A stretch of DNA of 64,000 nucleotides from Siphonodentalium dalli (Eukaryota > Mollusca > Scaphopoda > Gadilida > Siphonodentaliidae): assembly GCA_032622095.1 (NCBI GenBank), contig CP136068.1:138391989-138455988 (forward strand), given 5' to 3'. The notes below the pieces were generated by a model. That model was not told the DNA's origin, did not search any database, and saw only the letters and a list, made by a program, of their open reading frames with translations. This document shows positions 28,188 through 60,059 of this stretch, piece after piece (position 1 is the stretch's first letter; the number at the start of each line of letters is the position of its first letter). The translations under genes were made by a program, and so were the position numbers.

Positions 28188-28348
28188 GGTGCTTTGTGTT
28201 GATCCTAATCCTGCAAACATGAAGTCTTATGTGCAAGAACTACGGCAGCTGATCTCAGCGCGACCGAAACGGCGACGAACAAGCGAAATTCTGGAGCTGT
28301 TGCCATGGTTACGAAGGTGGACTCCAGCTCTGGAAAAGGAAAGCCAAG
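28188..28348 (+). CDS. CNBD protein gene, exon A (helical lead into the domain)
   Basis: The exon ends at the donor CCAAG|GTAAGA in phase 1. A possible acceptor is ATGCAG|GG at 28187; alternatively this is the first coding exon, with ATG at 28219 (AAC before it is a fair start context). An in-frame stop at 28171 bars extension further left. From the ATG it encodes 43 residues, including RRRTSEILELLPWLRR at about 19-34. This resembles the Arg/Thr-then-helix lead that precedes many CNBDs. The phase, plus strand and sequence logic fit exon B at 47525. No domain is proven by this exon alone; the call depends on exons B and C. Confidence 0.65.
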
Positions 28349-29064
28349 GTAAGATTAAACAACATCATTATCAAACTGAAAAGCAGAGTTAAGTCCCCCG
28401 CCATGCTTGTCTACCACAGAATATAAGAAAATCTTACATGTTTATTCAAGAGTTTATTTCGGTTTCAATTCATTGTGATTTGATCCGGGCAACTGCCAAA
28501 TGAATATGGACAGATCATTGTCTCAGAATAATGCAGACAAAATTAATGGTAAATTCCACAGCCAGTCGTAAGGGGTGGGGCATAGCAGTTGCTAGGAGAT
28601 AGTTGTCTGCTCAAACACATTAATTGATTGTACAGCCTGTGCTTATGCTGGTTTACTCACACAAGAACATACTCACAAGAACATACTCTGTTCTTGTCTT
28701 TAAATGCGAAAAACAAAATGAAAATGCATCAGACAAAATAAAGACAGTGTTACAGTCTAGATCATGTCATGAATTTCTGCTCTGTCTAACGCCCGTAGAG
28801 ATCATATTCCACCAGTACAAAACATTGGACCTTTTTGAAGTTTCGACAGGGAACCTTATAAAGTCGAAAGAATAGCGCGGGGAATATATTTCTTAATTAC
28901 TGTCTGTTCGTTAATAATGTACTTCGCTGCAGGTGAATGTTCCAACTCAAAATTGCATGTTTTTCTCTGACATGGTGAGCCGATAACGCAATAAACTGAA
29001 TAAATTACCCAGGAGACATTCCATAATTGTAAGCGACGCAAAGCAAATTCGCTCACAAATTCAC

Positions 29065-29083
29065 TTAAAGGGGTACTGTACAA
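29065..29083 (+). repeat. End fragment of the AGGGGTACTGTACA family
   Basis: TTAA followed by AGGGGTACTGTACA, as at 11723 and 42792, but without a second end. The DNA beyond, to about 29400, shows inverted similarity to 33290-33405 (GATCAGCAATGGCG / CGCCATTGCTGATC and ATATCCGATTTCTATG). Confidence 0.6.
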
Positions 29084-31097
29084 TTTTTTTATTTACTCCC
29101 ATTAACATAACTTTCAAGTTAGATTGTGTTCGTGTTATATGAGTTTCGTATAAACCTAATTTAGCGACGAAAATATTGATCTTGGAAATAAATATGAGCG
29201 CGTGAAACATCGGGGGTATATGAAAGACCCTTGAACTGGCAGTTTCCACCAATCGTGACGTTGCTCTCGCACGCTGCATTTGACATAGAAATCGGATATA
29301 TAAAGACTAGAATGGCAGTCGCGATCTAATTGGCCCATGTCGTTTGATGCAACAGGACGCCATTGCTGATCAGGGCAAAAGACATAAACAAGTCCACGTG
29401 TTTCTCATTTGTTTTGTTAATGGCGAATTCAAGTTACTTTACAAATCTACTTTTTTCGACAATTTGGAAATTTAGAAACGCAAAAACGGTATTGTTGCAA
29501 TGAACTGAATATTCATTTAATATCATGGAGTTGTGCTAGGACTATACTTTGGACGCTGTTTTGAGAATATTCGATGAATAAAGGGATTTGGTTGTCGATT
29601 CTGGACGCTATCGTTTCGGAACGGACAGGTCACTTTTGAAATTCAGATTTTTGTTTTAGAGGAATATTCATCTACACCGAGTCAAAATTATTCGGCTGTA
29701 ATATGTCTAGAACAATTGTCTGCAGTTTATTCACCCATTCTTTTTGGAAATATATTCTAAAACTACGATGCAAATTGGGAAGTAAATTACCTATTTTCGT
29801 TGGATTTCTCCGATGGTGATCCAGCGTGGGGCATTTCAACACTGCTAGCAAGGGGTTATTGCTGAGATATTCGAATTTGATGAATATTTAATAAATAATT
29901 GTTTATTAATTTCACTTGTTGCTTGTATTTATTCTCCAAAAATCAATTGGATGACTCAACCATGGTCGTTTCGTACCCTTCGCATCACACTTTTGGTTGT
30001 TTCGCACTGTATATTTGGTCATTTCACCTTCATTTTCCCACAAATGTTGATAGGTCATATGAATATATATCATGTGAAAATTTATATTGATTTCTTAACT
30101 TAATGAAAGAGAACATTTATGATTTAATGTTTTAAAAAATGCAATACTTGACGGCAACCCAGCAATTAAACATATTTCCTTTTTGCGAAAAAAAAACTGT
30201 TACTGTGGCAAAAATTTCATGTTATTTTTAAAAAAGTTTTACCGGTATACTCAATGGTATGAATGGTCCAAATTATACCGGTATGAAAATTCCGCAACCC
30301 TGGTGCGAAGCATCTCTATGTGAAACTTCCATGACAAAATGTCCAGCACACTATTGGTTATTCATTCCTTTGTACATTATTTCAAAATAAGGGTAATACT
30401 AACAAAGCAGCGTATTACTTTTAGTATTAAGTTGATTCTTGAACCAATTGTATAGTCACAGAGGTTTTTCGTAAAGAAAACGAGTAAAATAAAAAAAACA
30501 TTGGAATTAAACTCAGATAGAATCTATCTGAGTTTGCCTTAAACTAAGCCACTTTAACAAATTCATCGATATTCTATTTTACAAATGCAATTCTTTGTAT
30601 TTTTATTCTTACTCGTTTTCCTAATGAGAAATCTCTGCACAAGAGGTCTGGAACTCTTATGATCGCAGAAATCAGGGATACAATGTCGGTCTCTGTCAGC
30701 ACCCTTTGGAAGAAAATTTCCTGATGGCCATATCGGTTCAAAAGTAGGAAAACAAAATATGCGACTGGTTGCCTAAAAATAATTTCGAACTAAAATATGG
30801 TGGTGAATTCAAGTGAAATATTTCAACCTATTTTATTGTTAACTGTTGAATCTACAACTGATATTGTATGAAATTTCCAACTGTTGAAAATTTTGACCAA
30901 TGTTTATGGTGAGGCAAACTGATGTCATCACCGCCTCTTGGGCAAAAGTTGAAGCAATGCCTGGTTTCTCCATGGATGAGTGACTCACTGAAATACGATA
31001 TATACTGGTACAAAAGTGTACAGTGGAGAGCACGAATGGTCCCCTGTGATGGAAATTTCACACCAACATAGGTTGTAAACACACAGGCCTGGGAACT

Positions 31098-31503
31098 TTA
31101 AAGGTACTCAATCCGATCAGACGCTCCCAAATTACTATTTCTTTGGCTTCGGGGGTAAAAAATATTTGATTCGAGTCGAGGAACCCACCCATCAAAGTTC
31201 AGATTTATCAGATATTGATTTTTGAAGTTTGTTATTTCTCGAGATGTGAACTAATAATTCGCACAGAAACACGAGGACAAACGGACAAAGATGGATATTT
31301 TGTCCGAGAACACTCATTTGACGGCGTGTTATTGGGCCACAAACAATAGAAATAATAAACTTCATAAATCCATATCTGATCACTCGGAGCTTTGATGTGT
31401 ACCAGGGTAGGTTCCTCGACTCGAATCATATATTTTTTACCCCCGAAGCCAAAGAAATAGTAATTTAGGAGCGTCTGATCGGATTAAGTACATGTACCTT
31501 TAA
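31098..31503 (+). mobile_element. TTAA-flanked TIR element (AGGTAC...CCGATCAGACGC family), copy 1
   Basis: TTAA flanks both ends. The inverted termini extend about 95 bp: AGGTACTCAATCCGATCAGA at the left and the complement of the same, through GGCTTCGGGGGTAAAAAATA and ATTCGAGTCGAGGAACC, at the right. It is non-coding. Copies with the same termini lie at 46510-46974 and 60085-60315. Confidence 0.8.
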
Positions 31504-31659
31504 AATCTAAATTTATTATATACATGCGCAGTCCTTGAAATTGGCCATGGCAATAAACAATGCTGTGGGAAATGCTATGGCAACATGTGGCATCTAACAT
31601 TCCACATATTTAATTTGCCGATGGACATTTGCCTAATGTCGACGGCTGTATGCATATAT

Positions 31660-31875
31660 CCAAGGATGGTCTATCTCTCCCTACATGTATAACATGTTTT
31701 ATATTGTTCCTGGGTATAAAATAATAAATATGAATCGAAAACCCTTCTATCAATTAATATTGATTTTATTTTTGAATGTTCTGGTATAATACATGTACAT
31801 ACAATCTATTTGGGAGATTATAAAGTTCGCGGAATTGTTCGGTGCAGAGCAAGTGGGAGAACTCTATCTGAGTTT
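31660..31875 (+). repeat. Left-half fragment of the AAGATGGTC family
   Basis: GGATGGTCTATCTCTCCCTA followed by CGAAAACCCTTCTATCAATT and TTCTGGTATAATACATG matches the left half of the elements at 16885 and 37779. The right half is absent. Confidence 0.6.
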
Positions 31876-32091
31876 GCCTTAAATTTTCATTATGGTTTGT
31901 TTTAAAAATAGTAACAGAAAATGGGGAAGACACCTACCGGGTATACTTTCTTGTGTAGATATGGATAGCTGCATATTTTGCCTATACGGTAGTGAATCAC
32001 CTCTGGTCATGAGAATATAGTGCATTGAATGTACATGCCTCGAACTGACTACAAGTACAGTATAACCACACGTTCTGTAGTATAGAGGTTT

Positions 32092-32279
32092 TTGGGGCTG
32101 TTGGGGCATTCGTTATTTTACTCTGTTATAAAACGTTTATGGTACATGTACAATGTTATGCCTCTTCATGCTCTAGATATTGGGTTAAACCCAATATCTA
32201 GAGCGTGAAGAGGCATAACATTGTACATGTACCATACACGTTTAACAGAGTAAAATAATGAATGCCCCTACAGCTCCAA
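32092..32279. repeat. Near-perfect palindrome, arms about 94 bp
   Basis: The centre is TTAA in GGGTTAAACCC at about 32182-32192. The left arm GGGGCATTCGTTATTTTACT is mirrored by AGTAAAATAATGAATGCCCC on the right, and the inner ATGCCTCTTCATGCTCTAGA by its complement. Only a few mismatches are seen. It could be a MITE with no spacer or a fold-back element. No duplication was identified. Confidence 0.8.
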
Positions 32280-33519
32280 ATACCCATGAAGAAATATGGG
32301 GCGCCGAAGTTTATACTAACTAAAGGTGCACAATGAATTGAATGTCATAAGCCATCCACGTCCATGGAATGGATTTGTGAACCAGTAAATGGGCTTGATG
32401 AGCTACCTGATTCATGAATGTGATTTCGCTAAGAGTCACTACATGTATATGACGTTGATTGATGACAATCTTGATACAAAATCCATTATAATAGCTGCTT
32501 TGAGTAAGTTTATTCGCTGTACGCCCAAGCGGGGTGTTTTACACACATCTGCTGACACAGGTTTAATTAAATTTTTTATGGAAATTATTTGAATTTGTAT
32601 ATGAATAGTCTAGAACCTGGTGTTGAATGGTGCCATGGGGGTTTCGAGCATATTTCACCCCTGCATAATGCCAACGATAATAACTAAATAAGTAAACAAC
32701 ACCATGTCACTGAAATTCAGAATGGTGTTATTTAAATTTTACGTATTAATGGTTTGTTCAGTATCACTGTTTATCAGTAGCTCGAAGACGAGTATGACCC
32801 GCCACACAGTAGCATTTCAACCAGGTTCTGCTCATATAATAAATTCAAATTGACAAATTAATGACATGTTGTTCAAAAGTTGTCTGAGTGAAGCCAGTGA
32901 GTCAGTGAACAGGTCAGGTCACGTGAAACTGAAAGTGAATAGGTTTTGCAATAACACCAACAGTTTACAATCAAATACTAGTTTAGCTAACTGAAACCAT
33001 GTTTTAAACTATCATCTGAGACCTTGTTTAGTAGGACTTTACGCCTATTCAAATTAAAAATTACAACAATGATGATATTGACTCACACTCGCAGCACTTG
33101 TCCAAAAGTTACAAAACACCTTCGGAAATCCGCTTCAAAAATGTCATTTTGACGAAATATATTTGTAAAATAAAACCTATGTACTCCGTTTCATTGTTCT
33201 CCAACTTGTTCTCGTTTCGATGAGTAGGATTAAATCCAATTTTGCCGAGAAATATGAACAAAATATCAATTTACTTTCCCAATAACTTCACTTGACAGAC
33301 GATGTTTTGCCCTGATCAGCAATGGCGGACGAAAGCACGCTTGTAGTCACGTGACTGCCATTCTAGTCTTTATATATCCGATTTCTATGGAATTTGACGT
33401 CACCTGACACCGGATCCTTAGGTCAGCTACTGAATTATTCTTATTGGTGTGAATTAATCGGATAACCTATGAAAAACACACTTAAATTAAGGAGATATGG
33501 TTATTGTTGTGGGGACAAA

Positions 33520-33663
33520 ATCGTTATCTCCGGCACCATCGTGGGGTAGATGGAGATTTAATACATGGATGTCTCTTTTTGAACCCCTCGGCTCCGCCTC
33601 GGGGTTCAAAATCGACATCCAGGTATTAAATCTCCATGTACCCCCGATGTTGCCGAAGATAAC
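33520..33663. repeat. Palindrome with GC-rich core
   Basis: The left arm GTTATCTCCGGCACCATCG runs through TGGAGATTTAATACATGGAT to GAACCCC. The right arm GGGGTTC and onwards is its complement, ending GTTGCCGAAGATAAC. The loop is TCGGCTCCGCCTC. It stands at the left side of an AAGATGGTC-family remnant (right end at about 34032). Confidence 0.75.
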
Positions 33664-34035
33664 TAATAATAACACTGAATCGAAGACCCCTGTCCGGAAA
33701 TGCTTCTAGATAAAATTAATACTGATTTTATTTCGATTTTCTGGTATAATACACGCAATATGGGCCATTTTACGGCTCGCGGAGCGTATAGCAAGCAAGA
33801 AAACTCTATTTCTATATGAGAACGTATGAACATTCATGACGGCCTGTTCTAAACAAAGTAACGAAAATATGTCCCAAATGATTATCGTATTATATAAGAA
33901 AATATCGATATAAAATCAATATTAATTGACAGAAGTCTGTCCGGACATATATCTTCGACTCATATGTCTTAATTTTTTATATATCCCCAGAAACTATGTA
34001 AATCGTGTTTGGGAAGAGATAGACCATCTGCTAGG
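33664..34035 (+). repeat. AAGATGGTC-family remnant
   Basis: GAATCGAAGACCCCTGTCCG, an internal inverted CTGTCCGGACATATATCTTC, and the right end GAAGAGATAGACCATCTGC match the element at 37779-38393. The left terminus is replaced by the palindrome at 33520. Confidence 0.65.
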
Positions 34036-35069
34036 GTTACTTATTGAAAGACTTACCGTGAACTGGTTTCTAAAATCTCCCGCCTAAGCTGTTAATTGTG
34101 TACTAACAAGAATCCGTGGGGTATATATGCCACGGTTTACATAACCTTGTTAGTATTACAGTTTCTATATAGAGTAATATCCTGTCGTATCGGGTGCGCT
34201 GATATACGTCTTCTGTGAACAATTAACACACTATTATTCTTTCGGCTAAATTGAACAAAGACCACTGACGTTTGTCCCAATAATAAGACAGATAAATAAT
34301 AATGCTTATATTTGACAGCTAACCTCTATACTCCTATGTGGATACTAACTATTATAGGTTTAACTGATTAGCTAAATGATACGAACATGGAGTTCTTTTA
34401 AGCTTTGAACACATTACTTGAATAAACACCCATATGCAGATATATGTATATACATGAAGCAAAAATGGCAATTTGAAAATATAATGTCTAGATATAGGGT
34501 TGTGCTAGTCAATTAATTAATAGTTTGAGAAATAAAAAGTTCTTGAATGCTATTTTTCAGAAAAAGCCAGAAAAAATAATAAAAACATTAGATATATATT
34601 TATGTACTTCCTCTCATAATATATCATAACTCTATAAGTTCACGGACTCCTGTGACACTCAATTGTATTGAACTGTGATAGAGTTTATTTATTTACCGTA
34701 ACAACTTTCACATTGTTTCCCGTTTCACGCACATGCCAATAATATAGTGTTAACATCGCCTATAGATATTAAATGCTCATGAACGAATAGTTCCCTTAGG
34801 AAATGTTCAGATAATAAGTTCAACACACGACCATTGGTTTGGACTATTTGTCTGCTAATTTATCCAAATATAATTTAGACCATTCCAATCTATACCTTTA
34901 TAGCTATAACTGGAATAAACCACTTAGTATAGGAAGGGTTAATGAAACACCCTTGAGCATTCTCTCACGATTCCTTTATTTAACGAGAACTACAGAACCG
35001 GTTAACAAAATTGATCATAAGGTCACAGTATACCAGAAGCATATATACCGGACAACCTTTATGTCGGTT

Positions 35070-35458
35070 TAGGCTACGTTCATACGCTGGCAAGTTTGCA
35101 CGATATGTTTTTGCGGGCATTTCGTCATAGAAAACCACATGGTGCCAAAATATGAACGGAACCGTGCACATAACATGCATCTTTACCAAAGTGAAAGACA
35201 TGAGAAGTAACATTTTTCTAATCCCACTAATACCTGTATGATTTATTCTTGCGAGATAATTGCATGATATTTACAGGCAAATTCCGGTAGCATCGTTACT
35301 AGTGGAACTACAGATATTTTACTTCGCACGTAGTTAGCTGTGGCACAGATGCACTTTATGTGCTTGTTTTCTTTCATATTATGGCACCATATCGTTTCTA
35401 CGACAAAATGCCTGAAAACCACACCGTGCAAACTTGCCAGTATATGAACGTACCCTTA
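35070..35458 (+). mobile_element. TIR element (TACGTTCATA family), copy 1
   Basis: The left end TTAGGCTACGTTCATACGCT is mirrored at the right by TATATGAACGTACCCTTA. The inverted segments continue inward (GGCAAGTTTGCACG; GGCATTTCGTCATAGAAAACC / TTTCTACGACAAAATGCC). It is non-coding, and a longer interrupted relative is at 48551-50061. Confidence 0.75.
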
Positions 35459-35715
35459 CACATAAGAACATACCCATAAGCGCATACTATGTTCCTGCCT
35501 TTAAATGCGAAACGATGAATAAGTATCACCCAAAATGAAAGATATTGTTATAGCCGTGGATAAATTTCCAATATTAATGCACAAATTGCAAGTTCAGTCC
35601 ATGATGATTCCACAACAAAACCAGAGTTTGAAAATAGCCGATTTAACACTGAAAGTATATGCTCGAATATCCAAATTAGGGCAGACAAAGATGACATCAG
35701 AATGTTCGGGTGATT
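35455..35715 (+). repeat. Dispersed non-coding repeat shared with 28590-28730 and 58980-59220
   Basis: Shared landmarks include CATACTATGTTC...TTTAAATGCGAAA, AATTTAACACTGAAAGTAT in the 59.2 kb copy and the ATTAGGG zone. No terminal structure could be defined. Confidence 0.5.
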
Positions 35716-35721
35716 AGCCAT

Positions 35722-35850
35722 TGACTCTTAGTTGTCGGATACGGTGTCATGTGAGGCGAATTGAGATTAATGTTAGGCGAGGCGCCAGCCGGGCCCGATA
35801 TTAATCTCGCTGAGCCTCATATGTCACCGTAGCCGGCAACTAAGAGTCAT
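35722..35850. repeat. Palindrome related to 37430-37560
   Basis: GACTCTTAGTTGTCGG...GAGATTAAT on the left pairs with ATTAATCTCGCTGAGCCTCA...GCCGGCAACTAAGAGTC on the right. Parts of the same sequence recur at 37430-37560 (CTCTTAGTTGCCGGC, GATATTAATCTCACTTCGCC). Confidence 0.65.
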
Positions 35851-35939
35851 GTAACGCTTTTGTCGTGCTTTCCAGGTTAGAATTTGAATTATACTTGTAT
35901 CATTAGATTCTAGTAAGTTAAATGTGTCGTCTATGTCTA

Positions 35940-36317
35940 TTAACCCTTTACCCAACAGAAGGGCCCTGTGCCAATGCATTCTCTTATATATGCGAGTCGA
36001 CCATAGGTCGCCTCGCATATATAAGAGAATGCATTGGCTTAACACATTACAAATTATAAAATTGTTAAAGAATGTTAAAAAAAGATTTTTTTTAGGCCAA
36101 TGCATTCTCTTATATATGCGAGGCGACCTATGGTCGACTCGCATATATAAGAGAATGCATTGGCACAGGGCATAACTGTAACTATCACAATGTGGTCAAG
36201 GAGCCGGTTCCAATGATATCCATATTTGTATGGTTCTATTGAGACAGACCGAAGATATTTTAGGCTGTTGAAGCTTTATTTGGCCGGTTTTGGCCGGTTT
36301 GTTGGGTAAAGGGTTAA
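35940..36317 (+). mobile_element. piggyBac-like double-hairpin MITE, copy 3
   Basis: Perfect TTAA at both ends (35940-35943, 36314-36317) with CCCTTTACCCAACAGAAGGG and TTGTTGGGTAAAGGG termini. Both hairpins are intact. The copy is almost identical to 2550 and 41579 outside the hairpin spacer. Confidence 0.92.
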
Positions 36318-37129
36318 CTTATGTGACGGCAGAGTGACGCGCCATGGGCGTTGAACGTCAACGCATTGAGTCAATGGTTAATCACCCGAAGTAGGTCAAC
36401 AAATTGAGATTGATAGTTAATTTGTGAGTCTTTAGAATTCCTAAAATATATCGCATGCAGGTTTTTGGTACATGGTACTACGGCTTTAAATTCATAGAAA
36501 ATGATTTCCGACAGATATCCCCTTTCTTGGCGCCAAAATACACCGAAAATATCCTCAAGGTTGCAAGAAAATCAATATGGTGTCCATCGATGAATCAATC
36601 TAATCCCTGGGGCTTTCAACATGTGGTCGGTGTCAATCAAGGTGAACCTAATATGCCCTCACCTCCTGTCAGTAATCTCCAGTATTCCCAATTCTCTCAT
36701 ATTTCAAACAAACACTCATTTGCAACTGAGCCGCGCTAGCTGTGGTCACAGACGGCGTTTATTGCGTAACATGCTTTACAGGTTATATGTGGGCACATGC
36801 TATAATATTTTACATACACAATGTAAATACATCATAGAAAGTCTGCACAGCCGGTCAGGAAAAACCATGCACCCCTTTTATATAGGGACTGGAAACCTGA
36901 AATCCGAAGCCCACTCGTATGTGCAGCTCGGGTGTTCGGACCGCACCCTTATTGAAATCTACTCATAATTATAGATGTATCAATATTCTGAACATTGTGA
37001 ATAATTTGTCATCTTGCAGCTGAGTTATATTACAGAATGAAGAACGCTATATAGCTGGACACAGCATTGATAATTTCTTTCATTTGATTGAAAAAAAATT
37101 ATTAAATTTTTTTGAAAATTAATGTGACC

Positions 37130-37320
37130 CTCTCAGTGAAGTTACACGGCTAGAATGACGAATTCTCCGCTCTAGCGATCCGAACAATTACCACAAATCT
37201 CATTCTCATTGGCTACAATTCGAAATAGGCTCCGCCTATAATAAACAACTCTATATGCCCGAACTGTGAATACATAATTTTCCCGCTAATGCCAGGAAAC
37301 GCGGGAAAATTTGAATTCTC
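37130..37320 (+). repeat. Dispersed repeat ending CGCGGGAAA, copy 1
   Basis: CTCATTGGCTACAATTCGAA, ACTCCGCCTAT-like sequence and TTTCCCGCTAATGCCAGGAA with CGCGGGAAAA match 52440-52560. The terminal CCCGC...GCGGG can form a short stem. Confidence 0.55.
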
Positions 37321-37778
37321 ATATGGAAATCTAATAGGCCGGCATGATAATAATCTATATATGGATAGCTGTCGGAAATCATTATCAAATTCTCACCTGG
37401 AAAGTGTAATCAAATCGTTACAGTGCTCTTAGTTGCCGGCTAACAAGAACAAGGTTATGCATGAATACCGTGGCAAGAATTAGCGCCTCGCCTGATATTA
37501 ATCTCACTTCGCCTCATATGACACCATATACGGCAGCAACTCGCCCTGTAACTTATAATATAGAACAAAAATATTTTACGCAAATGGGGGATATCAGAAT
37601 GAATTAACAGATTGAGTTATCAAAGAACAATAACTCTAATTATCCCGTTAATTCCCGATTATGAAATAACGGGCATGTCTAAATATGCATGTCACAAAGA
37701 GACACATTTCTGGAACAATATTAAAATAAACCTAGCAATAAATATGAGTGAGAGGCGGCTATGAGTATTCAGATCTAC

Positions 37779-38393
37779 TTAAAAGATGGAATATCTCTTC
37801 CTATAACAAGTTTTATACAGTTTCCAGGGAATAAATAATGAATCGAAGACCCCTAGCCAAACTCAAAGAAAAAGAGAAAAAAAGAGGAAATAGTCTAACA
37901 TAATTAAATTGCTAATTCTTTTTTAGCTTGATTCTAAATAAAAGGCATTGATATGAGGGGTGAAGGAAAGGGTCTATCGGCCCTTTCGACCATCTTGGGG
38001 CTAGCCCCCCCCCCCCCAAATCACGGGAGTAAAAAAAAAAGAAGAAGACACCTGTCCGAAACGCTTCTATGAATTAATATTGATATTATTTCGAATTTTA
38101 TTGTATAATACACCTAATCAATTTGGGCCAATTTACGGCTCGCGAAGCGTAGCTAGCGGGAGAACGCGATCACTACATGAGACCGGCTGAACGATCATGA
38201 CGGCCTGTACTAAAAATAGCAACGAAAATATGTCCCAAATGATTTTTGCGTTATATAAGAAAATATCGATATAATATCAATATTAATTGACAGAAGCGTT
38301 TGCGGACAGATGTCTTCGACTCTTTTTTTTTTATTTTATACCCCGGAAACTTTATAAAATGTATTTATCAAAAGATATATAGACCATCTTTAA
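37779..38393 (+). mobile_element. TTAA element (AAGATGGTC family), with a C-rich insert
   Basis: TTAA lies at 37779-37782 and 38390-38393, with termini AAGATGGAATATCTCTTCC and ATATAGACCATCT. The body is palindromic, with AAGACCCCTGTCCG-type and CGGACAGATGTCTTCG segments around GCGAAGCGTAGCTAGCGGG. A stretch of about 180 bp (about 37858-38040) with a run of 14 C interrupts GAAGAC..CC and is absent from relatives. Confidence 0.75.
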
Positions 38394-39341
38394 GCCCACA
38401 ATTCTTTGACGGGGAAGTTGTGCCTGAGTTATACTCCTTGCGCGACTTGCCGTGAATTGGTTGGTAAAATCTGCTGCCTAAGCTGTTAATTGTGGACTAA
38501 CAGGAAACCGTGGGGTATACATGTACATGGTTAGTGTATATTATAGTTTCTATATATATCGTAATGTCCGATCGTATTTTCTCCGTACAATGTCCATTGG
38601 CTGTGAGAATAAAGTATATATCGTGTGCGCTGATATACGTTTTCTATGAACCATAAAAACACTATTATTCTTTTGGATAAATTGAACAAAGACCACTGGT
38701 ATTTGTCCCAGTAATAAGACAGATAAATATGCTTATTTTTGACAGCTAAGTGACGGACTCCTGTGCCACTCAATTGTATTGAACCGCGACATACTTTACT
38801 TATTTACCGTAACAACTTTCACATTGTTTCCGCTTTCATGCACATGCCAATAATATATTGGTAACATCTTCTATATCCAATGCTCATTGACAATGCTATT
38901 TACTTTAACGTACTTCTTGATTTATTTTACTTCATGTCATTACATTCAACGCATGACTATCGTCCACTAAGTTAACTCTTAAAAGAGCATACCACATACG
39001 CGAATTTATCGTGAAAACAAATGAGCACCCCCCCCCCACCACCCATTCAATCCCTTCTTTATATTTCTGATTGATATTTCTGATTGATATTATCATGTTA
39101 ACATATGGATAGTGTGTCAATATACTTTATGAATGCATGACTGTATGTTTTTTTTTATCTTCAAGTTAATATGTAAATAAAGTTATCAATAATATATATA
39201 AAAAAATGCTCATTGACGAGTAGTTCCAATAGAAAATGTTCAGATAATAATTTCAACAAGCGACCTAGGTCTGGACTGTTGTCTGATAATTTATCCAAAT
39301 AAATATTAGACCATTCCAATGTATACATTTAGAGCTATAAC

Positions 39342-49367: not shown

Positions 49368-49370
49368 CGG

Positions 49371-49915
49371 CAGGGGGGTCGGAAAATTTTTTCAGGCACG
49401 TATGGCATTTTTTCGATTTCGATCTTTTTTTGTACCCACCCACCCCCACCGCCAATTATTTTTCCGTTTTCGACAGTTTTTTCCGACCATTTTTTGACAC
49501 CCACCCCCCCTTTTAACACTAAAACAGAGATTTGCGGGGGGAAATTAACTGTAAACAGCTGTATATGAATTTCTGTGCATACTATTTATCATGGATGTTA
49601 ACATGGACATGTAAATAGGAATGAGTCATTTTGAGGTCATTCGGCCAAAAAAACATGGCTGCCAGCAGCCATCTTGGATTTCAAAATTTGCAACAAAATA
49701 CAACACGATAACTGCCTGCAGTCAGTTTACCAGTTAGAATTACATTATTTCTCTCATTCAAAGTGGTTTTGAAGCCCAACTCATTGCCAAAACACTAAAA
49801 AACAAGCAGGAAATTTTTGTTTTAGTTGTGGAAAAAATAGCTTGTTGGTGGCTTTGACCACCCACCCACCCCGGCATACGTGCCGTAATTTTTTTTTTCA
49901 CCACCCCCCCCCCTG
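49371..49915 (+). mobile_element. CAGGGG...CCCCTG element, short form, copy c
   Basis: The element is 545 bp with the 7-bp duplication AGTACGG (49364-49370 and 49916-49922). Internal sequence is the same as copies a and b (ATGTTAACATGGACATGTAA, CATTCGGCCAAAAAAACATG). It is inserted at the right end of the element at 48836. Confidence 0.88.
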
Positions 49916-50203
49916 AGTACGGTAGTTGTTATCTGTGTTACAGATGCATTTTATAAACATTGTTGTGTTTGTTTCCTAGCATAATATAGCCTTTTGTATC
50001 GAAATGCCTGGGGAAAAAAACAAATGCCAGGACAATTAACGAGAGTATGAACGTATCCTAATTATTATTCTATCTTTATTTCCTCCATTCTATGAAGATT
50101 TATAAAGTATGTAACAAATAATCGATATGTACAGAAATGTGAATCAATAATGCTGAATTATAGTAATTGATGTTAAAATCCGACACTGGATATATCTACA
50201 TAT

Positions 50204-50475
50204 GTACACATGATGAATATGATGAGGTTGGTGGTGATGGCGATGGAGATGAGTTTGATGATAATGATGCTGATGATGTGTGTGTTATCAACGATGGCGA
50301 TGTTGTTAATGGTAGTGATGACGACGATGAGGATTATTATTATTATTATGATGATGATAGTGGTGGTGTCGATTGCGACGACTATGATGCTGATAATGAC
50401 GATATAAATGATGATAATGGTGATGATGACGATGATGGTGATGGTGATGATGATGATGATGATAATAATGAAGCG
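50204..50475. repeat. Imperfect (GAT)n microsatellite tract
   Basis: The tract is made of GAT/GGT/GAC-type triplets, dense at 50250-50470. The 110-codon Asp-rich frame across it is the translation of the repeat; no start context, splice sites or flanking domain support a protein. Confidence 0.85.
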
Positions 50476-50929
50476 GGTAGCGTATTCACATACCGGTAAT
50501 CATTTCAAATGATATTCAGTACATGGCACTCTTTGCTCGCAATGTCATAGATATCGCGGTGCCAATGCTCATTCGATTCATAATTTATTATTTGAATTAC
50601 ACTAGTGGTCATATTGGTGATATATCTGCGTTAGTCGCGAAAACAATCACGGGGGTTCAAAGTTAGTTAAAGGCTCACCTAGTGGTGTGTTAGCAAGATT
50701 GATGCCGATTTCTAACTGTGTCAGTATGTGTTTTCGTTGAAACTAGAAAGCGGAGGCCCCGAATTCACGAATCTCCATGCGTTGTCAATCAATTAATCAA
50801 TAGTTTATTTCTCATAAATCATACATCGTATGATATAAAGAAAGTAGATAGACAGACCGACCCCTGGTTCACATTTAACTAAACAATCATTGAATCATGA
50901 CAGGCATTACATCTAACTTTGAAGGATAA

Positions 50930-51332
50930 TTATCATATATATATACACTTATATATATATATATATCTTTATTATCCTCCATATATGGAGATTCATATAT
51001 AAATGTTTATATTATTAGAACAAACACAATTTGGTACATAACACAGTGTATAACAAAAATTAAGATTACAAACATATCTACAACACATGTCTCAATATGT
51101 ATGATGAACCAACTACACATGCACATATACACACATTCATGCACTACAAAAGGTAGACATTCCATTCTACAGCCATATCGTACTTACATACAGAGAAATA
51201 GCATACTCCGAGACGACCAAGCCGGAGTTGGACCCAATTCAGGGATCTCTCTCTCTGGAAGACCCACAAACGCCAATGCCTTTGTGCAGTCTTACCGACT
51301 CGGAGCCGACCATTTCCCAGCACCACTCATGT

Positions 51333-51400
<68 letters not shown>

Positions 51401-51440
51401 TATATATATATACAGCCATATCGTACTTACAGACATACAG
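50930..51440. repeat. TA microsatellites around a GC-richer island
   Basis: (TA)n runs lie at about 50936-50966 and 51336-51412. Between them an island at about 51165-51330 includes CGAGACGACCAAGCCGGAGT and GACTCGGAGCCGACCATTTC. The 20-mer ACAGCCATATCGTACTTACA occurs at about 51171 and again at about 51414, beside the second TA run. The island could be a SINE or a duplicated LINE 3' UTR; I cannot decide. Confidence 0.6.
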
Positions 51441-51612
51441 ACGACAGTCAGACAAGCAGGCATACCAGACAAACAAACAAACGACAGACATACATACATA
51501 CAGACTAATGTACTTACTGGTAAAACAATACACAGATACATGTGATATGAAGAATTACGAACACGCTTATAACTGCATGTTATGGTCGAGTTTATATGAA
51601 GTTTTGGGAGAA

Positions 51613-51885
51613 CTAGTCAGGACTTGGCGTCAGTCGATCAACATATACTCTCCAGAGGAATGCAGCTTTGTTCACGAAAAAGTCTATTAGTTTATTTTCT
51701 TCTTCGGGAGCACAGTATATGTTTTCATGTAGACCTGTTAGTAGAACGCGCGTTTTGGATTCTACATCCAGTTTGTCATACTGCATATAAATGTCTACAT
51801 GAAACAAGTTTAGTAGCCCGAATTCAAAGGTATTTCGATAGTCGCAAATGGAAGAACATTCTATTAAGACATGGTATTCCCAATT
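51613..51885 (-). pseudogene. LINE C-terminus, part 2 (after the insertion)
   Basis: The minus-strand frame opens NWEYHVLIECSSICDYRNTF and continues to a stop at 51613. Its EYH...EC supplies the His and last Cys of the zinc knuckle whose CVLC half ends the fragment at 52564. A stop (TAG) and a one-base shift separate it from the exact join. Order and strand are as expected for one LINE split by an insertion. Confidence 0.6.
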
Positions 51886-51893
51886 CTACCATA

Positions 51894-52567
51894 ATGATAA
51901 CAAACTACTAAAGCAATCAGCCAGGCCATCGTCGGTCAGCGTTTATTGTTCCGAAGACATGTACATATACATGAATTCATTATACACCCTACTCTATCAA
52001 TGCTGTGCAGCGGTCCAGGAACAACCACCCATAAAAACCCTTTTAGGGAAAACCATGATGGAAACCTGTTATCCGAACACTCTGCATGGACACAGCTAGT
52101 GTCGGAAATACACTCTCAATGAAATTTTACACAGAAAAATTTCTTACTCTACACGTTCCATATTTATATAGGAACACATGAATATCATAAGATAAGAACT
52201 TTAAACTATTTTGTATAACAGTGACATGTCTGTCTATCTTAAAATGAGATCAATGAAAATTCTCAAACAAAATCAAATATTTTCAAAGTTTGAAAACAAA
52301 ATTTTTCAAACTCACTATCTCCAAATTGAGCAATATCGCACACTTTAATTAAGTTAATTAAATAAAAATTTGTGTGCTGAACCAACAAAGTTAGGACTAG
52401 AAGTGACTACACTCCACTGATTTCCCGCCGAAATCAATTCTCCAATAACAACTTTTCATTGGCTGCTGGCTTAATGAAAACTCCGCCTACTCATAACATA
52501 CATTATTCATCGAGCTGTGAATACAATACTTTCCCGCTAATACAAGAAAACGCGGGAAAGTTATCAT
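51894..52567 (+). mobile_element. Insertion (about 675 bp) splitting the LINE; CGCGGGAAA repeat, copy 2
   Basis: It separates the two halves of a LINE zinc knuckle. The ends are the short inverted pair ATGATAAC (51894) and GTTATCAT (52567), and GTA beside each end may be the target duplication. The right 190 bp match 37130-37320 (TTCATTGGCTGCTGGC-type, AACTCCGCCTA, TTTCCCGCTAATAC). No ORF is recognised and the superfamily is unknown. Confidence 0.55.
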
Positions 52568-53472
52568 TTTACAAGATCTTTATGTTTGTTGTCACATAAT
52601 ACGCAGGTTTCCTCATTTGTTTCCAGGATACAAATAAGGCGTGCAATAAGTAGATATGATTTTTTATGGGCTGGGTATATGCGACAATTTTCCCATAGCC
52701 GGGACATGCATAACGTTGGATGGACGGCAGAGAACCTGGCAAGTCGAGTATCCTCATTTACGCTCATGTCCCAATATTCTCTATTAACTTTTGACCATGA
52801 TTCGTTTATGGCACATTTCCATGTGGATTTCTTAGGGAATATTGAATTTTCGATGTAGTTCTCAAGAGCTTCGGTCATGTCATATTTGTTAAGAGTGTCA
52901 ATGATGTCAGACATGTAACTTGATAATGAACATGTCGTGCCAACAATGTACTGATATAAGCGCGTGAGAAATACTTGTTTCACAGATTTAGAAGATTTTA
53001 AGTTGCAATCAATCAGTTTATTTCTCATAAACCTAGAGCCGAAGAATGACATTTTACGTTTTTCGATAAGTGACACCATAGACGAGGTTCCGACTAATCC
53101 TTGCGCAATAACCGTTTTTGTACGACGATGAAGGCCCTGGTAATACTTTAAACAGAATCTGTGTGTTCGTTCCAGGCGATCAACGTGTTTTTGGTTCAAA
53201 TTCCAGAGAAGTTCAGACCCGTACAGCCCTTTAGGTATGACCACCGACGAATATATCAACGAGCAACTTGTTGGGGTCATACCACCCGGGTAAAGGCCGG
53301 CGTTGTTGAGCATCATAAACGTGCTACGAGTCTTATCGCATATATGCTCTGTGAATATTCCATTAAAGTCATACTTATCAAGATAAATGCCCAAATGAGT
53401 TATGTTGGTGGTTTCTTTGACATCTGAGGTACCAAGGTTCCAAAGTCGATCCTGGCGCGAAAATTCTGATTG
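52564..53472 (-). pseudogene. LINE protein fragment, region after the reverse transcriptase
   Basis: The minus-strand frame is open from about 53472. It reads FSRQDRLWNLGTSDVKE and THLGIYLDKYDF, then NNAGLYPGGMTP and VIPKGLYGSELLW, followed by VDRLERTHRFCLKYYQGL. The series HLG...GL.P......V.P..LYG.E.W......LE..HRFCLK..QG is typical of the stretch following the reverse transcriptase in many LINE proteins. It ends in CVLC with the rest of the knuckle displaced to 51885. No reverse transcriptase core or 5' part is present. LINE 5' truncation plus a later insertion explains the structure. Confidence 0.8.
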
Positions 53473-54336
53473 TCAATACATGCACACTATACAGGGAGTG
53501 GGATAATAATGTTATTACATAATTAGCCCCTAAATCCAGTCTTTTAATTTTTTAGTAGGACTCATGTGTATTATGATTATACTATTATCGGCACGCCCAG
53601 TGACGTGAACGTTTAGCGCAGTGATGTCGATGTCAATACCGGAACTTTATTATTATTATTATGTTAACTAGAATATAATTATGATACTCGATTTGTGTTG
53701 GGTTAGTTAGTGAGACAAACATGAATAGACACATTTAAAATGGAATTATATATTTTCTTGAAGGTTTCTTTACTTCCTCTTTGGTTGTGATAAGGAAATC
53801 AACATCAATTTTGTTTAACCCTAGCGGTTTCGAGATCGTATTTCCTTGCTAAAATGTGATTATGTGATAAAATGCATCTCAAATTCGTCGCAATTCTGTT
53901 CGAATTTATTAACCTCGCCCACTAAATTCGATTCGTGTCGAGCCGATCGAGTGCATTCGGTTCATAAATTTCGCATAGAATAGCGACTCAGTAGAGATCG
54001 TCAATATATGACACTAATGTGTTTTTTTTTTGCTTACAATGCTGTTTCTTCGTGATCAGGGTAGTGTTGGATTGTATTTCAGAGTGTGGCTTGTACTATA
54101 CTGCATGGGCTGTACGATATCGATTACTGATTGTGCTAACCACTTTTCTGTATAGAATTCTATCATAGAGCTAATCCAATACAAGCGTGCAAACACCGGA
54201 TATACACTCACCTATCCGATAGTTATATGATAATGGAGTCAGTGCTTGGCGAAATTGAAAGCTAATCTTCGCAAGTGGACTGCCAAAAATAGAATTGTTC
54301 AAGAATATTTATACCGAGCATTATTTCTGGCTGACA

Positions 54337-55917
54337 CAGGGGGGGGGGGGGGGGGGTCGAAAAAAAATTCCAGGCACGTATGATGATTTTTATTTTTTCC
54401 GGCCTCGGACCACCCACCCACCCAATTTCTTCCGTTTCCGGTCTTTTTTTCCAGGCAATTTTGGACACCCACCCTTTTTTTTTCCGTTTCAGGAAGTTTT
54501 TTCCGGTCAGTTTTGGACACCCACCCCCCTAAATTTGAGAAAATTATCAATTGAGCAACCAAATAGCTGATTATCCTGCATTATCATAATTTATTGCGCG
54601 ATATTTGAATAGAACAGTGCATAATGAGATAACGATACTATTTGAATTTATTATATAAGTGTCATTAATCAAGAAATGTGTCAACATAATCACATTTCAA
54701 GGGATATATAGACAGAGTGCCAAAGTTTTTATTAACATTCATTTTCATAATATTTAGTCACATGATCTAGTCACATAATCACATTTGAGTATTCTACATA
54801 ATACATGGTACCGGTACAACAAATTTCAGATTATTTGATATTTTGATATTTGCTATGTGATATACAGTAATGCCCTAATTAATCGACTCCATAAACACAG
54901 CAGAATAATAGGTAATTTTTCAGGATTTAGTCGGAAATATGGCTTGTTGTCATTCATCGGAAAGCTCTCGGTGAGAGCTTTCCAATGAATGACAACAAGC
55001 CATATTTCCGACTAAATTGTGAAAAAAATTACTCATTATTCTGCTGTGGTTATGGAGTCGTTTAATTAGGGCATTACTGTATTGCTGGAATCAAATTGTT
55101 TATCAAAACATGTGGAAATACAACTGTTCATCCCAGTTCATCCCAGTTTGAAGAATAATGCTAATACCAAACATAACCATGATATAACCGCGCTACTCTT
55201 CTTGGGGCATCTCAGAAACCAGAACTGAGGAAACATGTTATAGCGTGTAATGGCAGGCTGGTAGCCACTGCCTGAAGTAATAGGCTTCGTAATAATTGGG
55301 AATAATATGGATGGATAGCCCAATTTCACTTCTTTTTTTGCTCACGATATCAGTGACGATAAAATCTTCGTTACTGTGATTAACATTACAAGCTGATCCA
55401 CATTAACATGGAAAACAATGTGAAATTGTTCAAGCTGGCCTGGCTGGCCTTCAATTTATTTGTTAAGATTTTATGTTTTACGTTGTCAAAAGTCTATTTT
55501 ATTCCATTATTTATTATATTTTTATTTCCATGTCACATATGGTCAAGTGTGCTTTCATTTTATTACTTATTTTCAGCTGAGTTCTGCATAGTTATTCTTA
55601 TTTTGTTGTATCAGTAGATGGAATCCTCATTAAATTTTATTTTTCCAATAGCGCAGTTTCTAGTTCTATCAAGTTGAATTTGGGTTATTGTTGGCCATTG
55701 TGCAACTGATCCAACTTCTGATAACCTCTATATGTAGCATAGCATTACAATTAACTATATATGACCCGTTTCTGTTCAAAACACATCAAAATAAGACTCA
55801 ATAGCAGGAATGGAGAAAAAAAATTGGCATATGGAAAAAACTGCATTTTGGACCCAAGAGACACCCACCCACCCCATCATACGTGCCTGGAAATTTTTTC
55901 CGACCCCCCCCCCCCTG
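54337..55917 (-). mobile_element. CAGGGG...CCCCTG element, long form, copy e
   Basis: The element is 1581 bp, in reverse orientation to copy d, with the 7-bp duplication GCTGACA (54330-54336 and 55918-55924). The left end starts CAGG with a run of about 18 G. Apart from the longer nested hairpin (54865-55079) it is collinear with copy d. The frame at 55408-55617 starts MENNVKLFKLAWLAFNLF but is not conserved beyond the first third. Confidence 0.88.
54865..55079 (+). mobile_element. Mariner-like TA hairpin MITE nested in copy e
   Basis: The termini are CAGTAATGCCC and GGGCATTACTG, flanked by TA at 54863-54864 and 55080-55081. The 215 bp fold into a long near-perfect hairpin whose core is GAAAGCTCTCGGTGAGAGCTTTC, written here only as its ends GAAAGCTC and GAGCTTTC. 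Confidence 0.8.
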
Positions 55918-55924
55918 GCTGACA

Positions 55925-56856
55925 AAGGCCAATGTATACCATCGGTAAAAATATCAGAAGGAAAATAAGGACAACGTAAAATAACTCTAATCCGAATCAT
56001 TTGGTCAGGTTTTTTTTTTGGCTGTAATGCCGGGTCGTTTCGCCGTGGGAAGATTAACTTAACTGATAACCCTACATGATCCATCGTTTTTGAAACAACC
56101 ATCGTGAAGTATAGGAAGAGTGCACACCACCCCGCGTATCCGACCCTATCGCCACGCGCAACGAATTGGCATCGATTTGTTAGCAGACACATTTGAAGAA
56201 CATCGTACATGTAGCTCATTCGTGTACATGTAGAGACAATATAGTTTGTGATTGGATAAAATGGTGTGATGAAATGCCATGTATACATGCCACAAAGCAC
56301 GAAGGGCCCCACAAAAAGCCGTCGGTAAATTCGCTTTACATTAATAATTTAATATGTATTTGGTTATATCCTGAATTTCCGATGTGGTTACATTTACTAT
56401 GATTTATTTGCTGGAGTTTGCCCACTGTCCCATATCCTCCTTGTTGGTGTGCACCACGCACAACCATGGACTTTAATACAACGCTGGCACAACGAAGTGA
56501 CATCGAATTGGTATCGGTGTGTTGGCAGAATACATACTTGAAGTACCTAGTTTCTATAGCTCTTTCATCAAGAGACCATGCTATCGGAGAACAAAGACGG
56601 CATAGAATTTAACAAGTATCAAGTGCTTCCATAGAACGTAACTACTAGGAACAAAAAAACCCATCGGCGGACTCTTTTGTTTCGCTTGGGAACACTCTCT
56701 CTAATCAAACATGGTTCATTGAGCTATGCCTTATAGAGTACAGCCTGCTTGGCTTTCATTAACTGTTGTAATCCCAGCGGGTGGTTTATAAAAGACTGTC
56801 ACGAGACTTTAACAATCCATATAAGACTAAGGTCCAATCCCATCCGTTACAATGAA
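55925..56856. other. No gene; partial direct duplication
   Basis: Sequence near 56125-56200 (GTGCACACCACCCCGCG, GAATTGGCATCGATTTGTTA) is echoed near 56445-56535 (GTGTGCACCACGCAC, GAATTGGTATCGGTGTGTTG), an old duplication. A TATAAA at about 56787 lies 65 bp upstream of an ATG on the plus strand, but there is no supported exon there. Confidence 0.4.
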
Positions 56857-57090
56857 CTACACCGGCACTGCACCTGTATTTACCAACCTAGAAGGTGAGC
56901 ATGGAGTTTCGTTCGTATTTCTCTCGTAGGCATTTTCGTTGTTTTTAATGTTCGATGACGTCACCTCATTTTGTGGTGTGTGGAATTCGTGTGACGTTTG
57001 AGCTGTGGATTTATATCCCTCTGTTATGCTAACCATTTCTATACTAAATGGATTCTCAAATTCAGTTACATAAGTATACACCGGAGTGAT
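56857..57090 (-). CDS. Candidate terminal exon, unidentified protein (weak)
   Basis: A minus-strand frame of 77 codons plus TAG is opened by a possible acceptor AATAACAG|AT; the pyrimidine tract is poor. The translation (VYTYVTEFENPFSIEMVSIT ... RLVNTGAVPV) is polar, rich in Thr, Asn, Glu and Ser, and free of the Lys/Phe/Ile bias of chance frames in this AT-rich DNA. It could be a cytoplasmic tail or disordered C-terminus. There is no domain, no partner exon and no AATAAA just downstream. The acceptor zone is duplicated at 58190-58300, so a repeat origin is possible. It would be an opposite-strand gene inside the CNBD intron. Confidence 0.22.
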   Translation of the reverse strand: MTPVYTYVTEFENPFSIEMVSITEGYKSTAQTSHEFHTPQNEVTSSNIKNNENAYERNTNETPCSPSRLVNTGAVPV

Positions 57091-57194
57091 CTGTTATTCA
57101 TTTTGGAGATATTTTACTGTGATAAAAGCAGACATGTAACAGAGAAACAAAAGTACAGAAGGTGCCTTATTTATTGAGGAAATGTTGAGATAAT

Positions 57195-58161
57195 AAGTGG
57201 TATATTGAGGCGCGCCTTTGTTGCGACATTGAACGCGCTTAATTTCGAAAAAGACGCGATTATAGCGCAATACCAAACATCTGTCGCGCTTAATATTATT
57301 GCGATATTGAACCAAAATATTGCGATATTAAAGACACGGTTGGCCTTGGCGGTGGGTATCCTGTGAACATATCTCCACCCGTCAAAAAACGCCACAAACA
57401 GAAAGAACATCAAAATGTAGATAGACTTTGTCCGTATACAAATAAGAAATATCGCATAAACAGTATGTTATGGTCATATGTTTGACCATTGTTATGTAAA
57501 CAAAAGCATAACAAGTTACTTTTCTGGTGTTTGTTTATATTATGATGGTAAACATAAAGAGCGTTCTTTGTTGGTGAATACCTGATATGGAACTAATAAA
57601 GAGCGTTTATGCCATTTGTGTGTGATTAGCCAGTAACATTGTGCTGTCTTCTGTAACACAATCAGGCTCTTGCTTAGGTAAAATATAGTAGGTCTTTATG
57701 GCAACACGCGATGGTCATGGTATACATGAACGGAACTGTATGCGTTTTAATGTTTTTCTGTTTACGGTGTTTGGAACAAATATGAATATTTTCGACAATT
57801 AAGGCCGCACGTGCCTTTAAGAGCGCTAAATTTCATACAGACCCGATAGTGTTATAATTATATTAGATACATACTGTGCATATAGTGTACATGTACATAT
57901 AGTATATAGCATTTACAACTATACTTATATACAAATCCAAAACATTGACTCTGTTTATGCAATAAACAATATAGAAGAAGCAATAATTTGATTTAAATGT
58001 CACAATTTTGAGCGCAAGATGTTGCAATATTAAGCGCGAAATATTGCGATATTAAGTGCAAAATATTGCAATAATATCGAAAGCGGCGCGCTCATAAGCG
58101 TTTCCACTTGCAATATTATTGCGATATTGGGCGCCAAAATAGCGCACTTAATAAACCACTT
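57195..58161 (+). mobile_element. TIR element with GCGATATT motifs, interrupted
   Basis: The left terminus AAGTGGTATATTGAGGCGCG is mirrored by GCGCACTTAATAAACCACTT at the right. Near both ends the motif TTGCGATATT or its complement recurs many times. A TTAA element (57328-57820) sits inside. A repeat of about 110 bp (GATCTGTTATT...GATAAAAGCAGACA...TTTATTGAGGAAAT) flanks it at 57087-57195 and 58195-58300. Confidence 0.65.
57328..57820 (-). mobile_element. TTAA element (AGGCACGTG family), intact copy
   Basis: The element is 493 bp with TTAA at both ends, termini AGACACGGTTGGCC and GGCCGCACGTGCCT. It has no insertion and so serves as the empty reference for 3986-5021. No ORF is seen. Confidence 0.85.
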
Positions 58162-59625
58162 CTTTTGCCTGCAACTGTAATTTAACATCGGAATGATCTG
58201 TTATTGATGTTGGAGAGATTTTACGGTGATAAAAGCAGACAAGAGATAAACAGAAGGAGTCCTATTTATTGAGGAAATATTTAGATAATAAGTTCAATTA
58301 TCTGAACATTTCATATTGGACAACTACCAATTAATGCTGCTATAGTGTAGACATGGTTTCTTTTACTCTAGTTGTACGACCAATGTATGTGATATTCAAG
58401 ATCCGACTAAAAAAAGGCTGGTACCGAACTTTCACAGTATCAAACATTGATTGTTGTCTGAGCCCTGGCAAGTGTTGATGAACTTTACTTCTGTACATGT
58501 TGGTGTGTTATGACCATTACTTCGGCAAATGAAGGCGTGGCTATAAATATCAAACGGTATTACAGACGTCTTTTACTCCATTTTTTTCTTAACAGTCATA
58601 CGTTGGAACAAACCTTGTTGTTTGACTGATATTCAGGAGACAGACGGTTCAGACTCGTTCAGAGTTGTCTACTCTTTTTCTTTGATGAGTAAATGGTGTC
58701 CTGTCTTCCATATCTGCCCACGTATTAATTCGCAATATCGCGACTGTTGTGTACTAGTGTTGCCATGTAATATTCGCGGAAGCTATAGCGGGATCTCTGA
58801 TTAAAAAAACAACACAATCGTTGATTTTTTACTTAAATATGTGACGACTTATAAATGAGATATAAATAATAAATTTAACTTTTCTTTCTTTAGTGGCATA
58901 TTCTTCGCTCCATATTACATTACGAAGCACAGGCAATGGTGCTTTCCGCACTTATTCAATAGTGTGTGGAACTTACGGTTGCTAGGAGACAATGCGTCTG
59001 CAGAACTAATTTAAATAGTTTAACAGCGCGTGTCCTTATGCTATAATACACAGCTAACATACATTATGTTCGCCTTTAATTGCGAAAATTATGACAAGTG
59101 TAATGAAAAACAGTGTCCATTGATAAATTATGATTAATTTTGACAACAAATAGTTGTTTGAATATAGGCAATTTAACACTGAAAGTATGCGTGGATGTCA
59201 CAATTAGGGTGAACAATGATTCTCATTGCAGCAATCGACCGGCTCAGTTGTTGATTGGTAAAATTCTTTGCTGATAATGATTTGATTGACATATGTGGAA
59301 AGGTCCATTGTGAACATACATGTTCCTGCGTATTAGATGTATGACATTTGGTCCAGTAAATTTTAATTCTAATTTGTTTTTAAATCGAGTAATAATTCTT
59401 TACTATACAGACTTGAGCACTAAATGTATATAAAACTAATCAAAGGAGAAAGATAAGACTGTGTGGTTGTGAGAAATAGGAACATTTGCTACCACACAGA
59501 CAATAAAAAAAAGACCATACAGATGTGAGCGTTAAAATCAAAAGAACCCATCCATTTTTGGGCACATATACCCTCATTCAAATAGAAATACATGTAATAC
59601 CTTATATTCTTTCATTCACGTTCAG

Positions 59626-60059
59626 CTGCTATATAATCATCAGTGGGAAGGTTTCCGTCTACACAGATTCGCGACAAATCGGCGATGATGGATTACAAGT
59701 TAAAGACTTCGTTTCAAAGTCTCCAGTGAAACCACCGCCCAAGCAGGAACCAGAATCTGTCAGCCCAACGAAGGGATATACCAGCCCAACGAAGGAATAT
59801 GCCAGCCCAACGAAGGAAAGCTACCCGCGTTCCGAATCTCCTCTGAAGCAAATCAGCAGGTTGCTTTCTGTGCAAAAGGGACCAATCTCTCCTGACCTGA
59901 AGTCAAATTCTCAAAGCACCGCCAGTAACTCATCGTACAGTCCTGCGTCATCTCAGTCATCGGGGGCTGTCCGCTGGAAGGGCGTGGTTAAGAAGCATAT
60001 TGAACTTCGGCGGGTAGCACATGACAGGTCAAGATATGGAAGACAAATATTATGCCACG
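59626..60059 (+). CDS. CNBD protein gene, exon C (CNBD core with a long Ser/Pro-rich insertion)
   Basis: Acceptor TATTCTTTCATTCACGTTCAG, donor CCACG|GTAAGT. The exon is 434 nt, entered in phase 2 and left in phase 1, matching exon B. It begins CYIIISGKVSVYTD, the consensus of the CNBD strand that reads (F/Y)-I-I-L-x-G-x-V-x-V-Y. About 120 residues then follow that a normal CNBD lacks: KSPVKPPPKQEP, three 7-residue repeats (SPTKGYT, SPTKEYA, SPTKESY), SPLK, and a Ser/Asn/Gln-rich stretch. The exon ends WKGVVKKHIELRRV and RSRYGRQILCH, resembling the strand just before the phosphate-binding FGE.A motif. That motif must lie in the next exon, to the right of the window. Known CNBD role: binding cAMP or cGMP. 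Whether this one binds a nucleotide cannot be judged without the missing exon. Confidence 0.85.

Follow-up and report, generated by a model that had tools for sequence, protein, structure and literature searches.

The 64,000-nt window analyzed here, C8:138391989-138455988 of the scaphopod Siphonodentalium dalli (genome of 2.23 Gb in nine contigs), appears to contain the 5' part of a gene for cyclic-nucleotide-binding domains (CNBDs). The most likely reading is that of an intact, divergent gene with two CNBDs from a small family, with ligand binding lost or altered and with its first three recognised exons inside the window. Seven coding exons are recognised, all of which join in phase, over 49 kb from 28219 to 77290 in extended coordinates (i.e., the window numbering carried on rightward past 64000). 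The joined frame is open over 877 residues, with a stop codon at the end of exon G, and all splice sites are canonical GT/AG. The encoded protein consists of two tandem CNBD-fold domains, CNBD-A and CNBD-B, followed by a long C-terminal tail. The parts of the gene are as follows.

Exon A, 28219..28348, plus strand: MKSYVQELRQLISARPKRRRTSEILELLPWLRRWTPALEKESQ; ATG at 28219; donor gtaaga directly after 28348; ends in phase 1
Intron A/B, 28349..47524, plus strand: 19176 nt
Exon B, 47525..47612, plus strand: 88 nt; acceptor ttcag, donor gtgagt; phase 1 in, 2 out; start of CNBD-A (EHIVDLIKNCEFDLFEEDEVILKQGNINE)
Intron B/C, 47613..59625, plus strand: 12013 nt
Exon C, 59626..60059, plus strand: acceptor ttcag, donor gtaagt; phase 2 in, 1 out
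Intron C/D, first part 60060..64000 within the window, plus strand: 8568 nt in total
Exon D, 68628-68755 extended (L002:4628-4755), plus strand: reads GPGRLFGDVFLLNGSWLGDISVVADESCKLIMVEKALFDRTIK, with PGRLFGDVFLL; joins exon C in phase 1
Exon E, 69651-69832 extended (L002:5651-5832), plus strand: found with paralog queries and family motifs
Exon F, 71049-71159 extended (L002:7049-7159), plus strand: found with paralog queries and family motifs
Exon G, 75730-77290 extended (L003:1730-3290), plus strand: stop codon at its end; found with paralog queries and family motifs

The initial annotation of the window had proposed a cyclic-nucleotide-binding gene assembled from three exons 19 and 12 kb apart, and had predicted an exon bearing an FGE motif to the right of the window. 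Exons A, B and C are indeed found at the proposed places, with the proposed splice signals, open frames and matching phases (1, then 2), the introns of 19176 and 12013 nt account for the two separations, and the predicted exon exists as exon D, where the motif reads FGD and the junction with exon C is in phase 1. A single host gene with a CNBD, spread over distant exons, is thus retained, whereas the three-exon extent is not, the window holding only the 5' part of a seven-exon gene with two CNBDs. The initial annotation lets exon A begin at 28188, preceded by an AG; the ATG of the present model is at 28219, and exon A may be an internal exon that begins at an acceptor at 28187 rather than with this ATG. 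Joined from the ATG, exons A to C encode 217 residues and end in phases 1, 2 and 1, respectively. Long introns are normal for a genome of 2.2 Gb. The gene is presumably expressed, with splicing according to this model.

A regular-expression search for a second FGE-type exon on the plus strand, covering 60 kb and then 100 kb downstream, yielded exon D as the only match that looked right, the others being discarded on visual inspection. Only once paralogs supplied sequence were the second domain and gene 2, a family member on the minus strand, located. Reading exon by exon recovers the gene where the length of open reading frames (ORFs) fails; as a find, this is an ordinary divergent CNBD gene.

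Domain matches of the predicted protein

The profile search on the 217 residues of exons A to C that the initial annotation had called for gives a mixed answer, in that PF00027 matches with 25.5 bits (E 1.3e-5), yet stays under the curated cut-off of 27.5 bits. The best solved relatives of the same residues are cGMP-dependent protein kinases, with a top E-value of 1.2e-7 that is summed over four weak domains. Taken alone, exons A to C make a case for a gene that is suggestive but short of proof. With exon D included, the PF00027 score rises above the cut-off, to 40.5 bits, and the full 877 residues score 62.2 bits (E 4.7e-17), with both domains matched; the CNBD-B stretch on its own also exceeds the cut-off (29.0 bits). 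A Pfam scan of the 877 residues at E-values up to 1 detects PF00027 alone and no enzyme, kinase, channel or exchange-factor domain. Because the scan reveals no enzyme, channel or exchange-factor domain, the output of the protein would most likely be exerted via protein-protein contacts.

A family of paralogs with shared intron positions

A genome search with the CNBD core identifies nine matches besides the gene itself (E-values from 1.4 to 7, none of them proof individually), namely exon pairs at three places (two on C9, one on C7), and single exons on C4 and on C6 (two places). A search started from the C4 paralog scored 18 candidates, 14 of which are listed at E-values up to 1; by reading, these represent at least nine family loci and at least two other CNBD loci, the locus counts of the genome searches being lower bounds. 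One C7 locus repeats the D exon of gene 2, and six distinct D exons remain after near-identical copies are merged.

Intron positions were compared in six genes, i.e., the window gene, gene 2 and the members on C9, C7, C4 and C6. The position and phase of the exon B donor are common to all three genes in which it was compared (window gene, C9, C7), the acceptor and the donor of exon C are each alike in four of four (the same three and gene 2), and the acceptor of exon D is alike in six of six. The intron between D and E is present in half of the genes (window gene, gene 2 and C6), the E donor is alike in four of five, being apparently one codon later in C4, and the F acceptor is alike in 4/4. 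The window gene accordingly shares intron positions and phases at the B/C, C/D and E/F junctions, with the E donor of C4 as the sole exception, which shows that this predicted gene belongs to a small multigene CNBD family in the genome. The claim of the initial annotation that such an exon chain would hardly arise by chance is borne out by these recurrences, and more generally, intron positions in paralogs can substitute for RNA evidence. Literature searches on CNBD1/CNBD2 (also together with RAPGEF2), CRIS, cassette evolution, two-CNBD proteins, the ribose-binding cassette and family expansion returned no description of this family in the titles and abstract openings of the matches listed.

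Some of the paralogous loci show peculiarities of their own. The copies at C9:179.46 and 182.29 Mb (L014, L023) are 99.0% identical over 901 bases, and those at C6:210.32 and 210.46 Mb (L018, L024) are 99.9% identical over 701 bases; each pair is either a recent duplication or an assembly duplicate. In the C9 paralog (L014:619-1660), a 52-bp unit is repeated 20 times with 95% matches, beginning in the 3' end of exon B and including the splice donor, so that the end of this exon, IIRQGDRGEW followed by the donor gtaagt, recurs many times in the following intron.

The first domain

Exon C encodes, in this order, the CNBD-A strand CCYIIISGKVSVY, an inserted loop rich in Ser, Pro and Lys, and KKHIELRRVAHDRSRYGRQILCH. 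The loop comprises 137 residues between Tyr85 and Phe223; by count from the peptides, the same gap measures about 44 residues in C9, about 47 in C7 and about 64 in gene 2. Five S-P-x-K motifs, which are of the type targeted by proline-directed kinases, are found between residues 105 and 147, and part of the loop is encoded by a short repeat.

Tandem repeat, 59761..59818, plus strand: 21 bp, in frame, 2.8 copies; codes for SPTKEYA-type units, part of the loop

The canonical pocket residues Glu, Ala and Arg of CNBD-A correspond to Asp225, Phe227 and Gly235 in the window gene, with Leu234 preceding Gly235, so that the cassette FGE-x-A...R is lacking. All five other distinct family members keep the Glu, the Ala and the Arg (alignment A1 and the extra copies read). 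In the CRIS protein, the Arg and the FGE motif are modelled as contacting phosphate and ribose, and a change of the Arg to Gln abolished the cAMP response (PMC3854790). Given the replacement of the cassette residues and the analogy to the CRIS mutant, CNBD-A of the window gene probably no longer binds cAMP or cGMP by the usual mechanism. It would have turned into a structural or phosphorylation-regulated module, interrupted by the loop with its five S-P-x-K motifs.

The second domain

The cassette region of CNBD-B can be compared in six members, those in C7, C6 and C4 being assigned by position (same strand, 9 to 15 kb further on than the D exon), with a weak match in C4 (E 0.43).

Window gene: GDIETRLDLKT
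Gene 2: NEIEVAAKLDT
C9: GDIELLLDLDK
C7: GDMELTLGLPT
C6: GDIEVALDLDT
C4: GTLEYMLGLDT

The standard phosphate-binding cassette is not found here either. At the position of Ala202 of protein kinase A (PKA), here +3, all six members have Glu; the position of R209 is occupied by Thr in five members and by Lys in one, and no Arg is present at +10 or +11 in any of the six. Position 0 is Gly in 5/6 and Asn in the remaining one, and position +1 is Asp in four members, Glu in one and Thr in another. With the pocket Ala replaced by Glu and without the Arg, CNBD-B would not hold a cyclic phosphate by the standard mechanism; its ligand would be another small molecule, if it has one at all. The label 'cyclic-nucleotide-binding' in the initial annotation becomes doubtful given the replaced contact residues in CNBD-A and the missing Arg in CNBD-B, the more so as the other five members retain Glu, Ala and Arg in CNBD-A. 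Potentially, this is an important contrast: the first pocket is canonical in five members and lost in one, whereas the second domain has Glu for Ala and no Arg in all six.

Alternative explanations

Several observations weigh against an intact gene with lost or altered ligand binding. Substitutions in the phosphate-binding cassette need not abolish binding, and a phmmer search with the CNBD-B stretch detects no significant solved relative (best E 0.27). The genome searches identify no paralog match for exon A. In an upstream scan of 67.5 kb, six candidates with at least 43 open codons have a GTRAG donor through which they could be spliced to exon B in phase, and exon A, which was picked from among them on its content, competes with the five others. 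Finally, the single test of selection that could be made detects no constraint on exon C or its loop. This test rests on a fragment at C2:66.07 Mb (L001:3749-4753), which includes a frame-broken part of exon C, from window position 59727 on, and about 520 bases of the next intron, and is 90.5% identical in the exon part. Exon and intron differ from the fragment at 28 of 333 and 60 of 487 positions, respectively (p 0.085; ungapped positions, with indels excluded from both), and 7 of the 28 exon changes are synonymous, compared with a chance expectation of 29%.

Exon A is the least certain exon because it lacks paralog support and was chosen on content from six phase-compatible candidates. No counterpart is detectable within about 10 kb upstream of exon B in C9 or about 20 kb upstream of exon B in C7; of the 28 candidates considered there, 16 are listed, 8 for each gene, and the score of every one of these was equalled by no fewer than 10% of its shuffled versions. 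The C2 fragment was also considered as a processed copy that would prove splicing, and was rejected as such, since it contains part of exon C together with the following intron; with intron sequence following a partial exon, it is a DNA fragment rather than a retrocopy.

Among the alternatives, a real gene whose CNBD-A has kept cyclic-nucleotide binding in modified form, with Asp225 standing in for the ribose-contacting Glu and main-chain or loop groups for Arg, is unlikely. Asp is a conservative substitute for Glu and the remainder of the domain still fits PF00027, but the Arg column contains Gly and the Ala column a bulky Phe, all five other members keep the three canonical residues, and the Arg-to-Gln change in CRIS eliminated the cAMP response (PMC3854790). 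That the gene is a decaying pseudogene in which stop codons have not yet accumulated appears very unlikely: the loss of pocket residues, the lack of visible constraint on exon C relative to the C2 fragment and the very presence of a broken exon C fragment elsewhere in the genome are compatible with decay, but seven open exons with canonical GT/AG sites over 877 codons, and a CNBD-B that keeps the Glu and Thr of the family, are not what decay would be expected to leave. Three unrelated ORFs that mimic an exon chain by chance are an extremely improbable explanation, given that, even if phases alone match in about one of nine tries and exons A to C stay under the PF00027 cut-off, the same domains continue, in phase, through four more exons that complete them, and the paralogs repeat the intron positions. 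Chance assembly is refuted for exons B to D, because their intron positions and phases recur in paralogs, and is most unlikely for the rest, with exon A the least secure. The reading of an intact, divergent two-CNBD gene is accordingly preferred.

The convergent neighbour and other features

Gene 2 lies downstream of the window gene on the minus strand, tail to tail with it, and its CNBD-A cassette is intact. The following exons were identified (extended coordinates); no counterparts of exons A and B turned up within the downstream DNA examined.

Exon C', 161829-161614 (L011:7614-7829), minus strand
Exon D', 109519-109367 (L006:5367-5519), minus strand
Exon E', 103118-102921 (L005:8921-9118), minus strand
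Exon F', near 101056 (L005:7056), minus strand
Exon G', 89710-89420 (L004:5420-5710), minus strand

In the initial annotation, the CNBD gene was the only host gene that could be supported in the window. The window contains 17 ORFs of at least 130 amino acids; three others put to Pfam include two that match reverse-transcriptase families above the cut-off and one with nothing above the cut-off. Mobile-element ORFs and repeats in the window are the following.

6303-9131, minus strand, and 60866-61864, plus strand: mobile-element ORFs of the reverse-transcriptase type (RVT_1, E 2.2e-29; zf-RVT, E 1.1e-7)
13092-13345, 24940-25570 and 62029-62397: related 122-bp tandem arrays containing GCGCATGCGC, recurring at several sites in either orientation
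21772-22591: 205-bp unit repeated 4 times, 96% matches, with internal 19-bp repeats

Comparison with known systems

Both domains resemble the PF00027 proteins PKA-R, PKG, HCN/CNG and CRP at the level of a fold-wide sequence match, but differ from them in the loss of the phosphate-binding cassette in both domains and in that the Pfam scan reveals no kinase or channel domain. Human CNBD1 is built of two consecutive CNBDs, with an interruption between strands of the first. The window gene shares this plan and shows weak similarity to the human sequence used (BLASTP, 23% over 90 residues with E 0.004, for a single query and subject and uncorrected for composition). A search of the genome with this CNBD1 sequence has its best match at C2:169876360-169876527 (E 1.5e-4), and none of the 4 matches listed falls on the window locus. 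Orthology of the window gene to CNBD1 is improbable, because the best CNBD1-like exons of the genome, as judged with this sequence, are those on C2 (169.87 Mb), and this assignment was rejected.

CRIS/CNBD2, compared here by its description, likewise has a CNBD but is neither a kinase, a channel nor an exchange factor. It is characterised by expression in sperm precursor cells and by a CNBD that contains FGE and Arg288 and responds to cAMP, unlike the two altered CNBDs of the window gene (PMC3854790). In the same paper, the CNBHD of KCNH channels is said to have the CNBD fold without binding cyclic nucleotides (PMC3854790); the fold is shared with the window gene, for which Pfam finds no channel domain.

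A partial parallel to the CNBD-B cassette is provided by the regulatory subunit of trypanosomatid PKA, which has Glu for the pocket Ala and polar residues for the Arg, and which accepts purine nucleosides at this site (PMC10959531). The presence of Glu and the absence of Arg in CNBD-B are reminiscent of E311 and T318 in T. brucei; in contrast, position +1, which is E309 there, is mostly Asp here, the position of G308 is Asn in one member, the capping Tyr could not be located in CNBD-B and nothing else points to a PKA subunit (PMC10959531). Since Glu at the A202 position and the loss of Arg in all six members resemble a ribose-binding cassette, the family could conceivably sense purine nucleosides, or a cyclic nucleotide through CNBD-A and a nucleoside through CNBD-B, in which case the window member, its CNBD-A pocket lost and a phosphorylatable loop acquired, would be left with the nucleoside-type site only; by this analogy, such a function is a tentative and unlikely proposition. 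The same source holds that further ligands of cyclic-nucleotide-binding domains might exist outside trypanosomatids (PMC10959531), and the family described here would be a concrete animal candidate in which to test for them.

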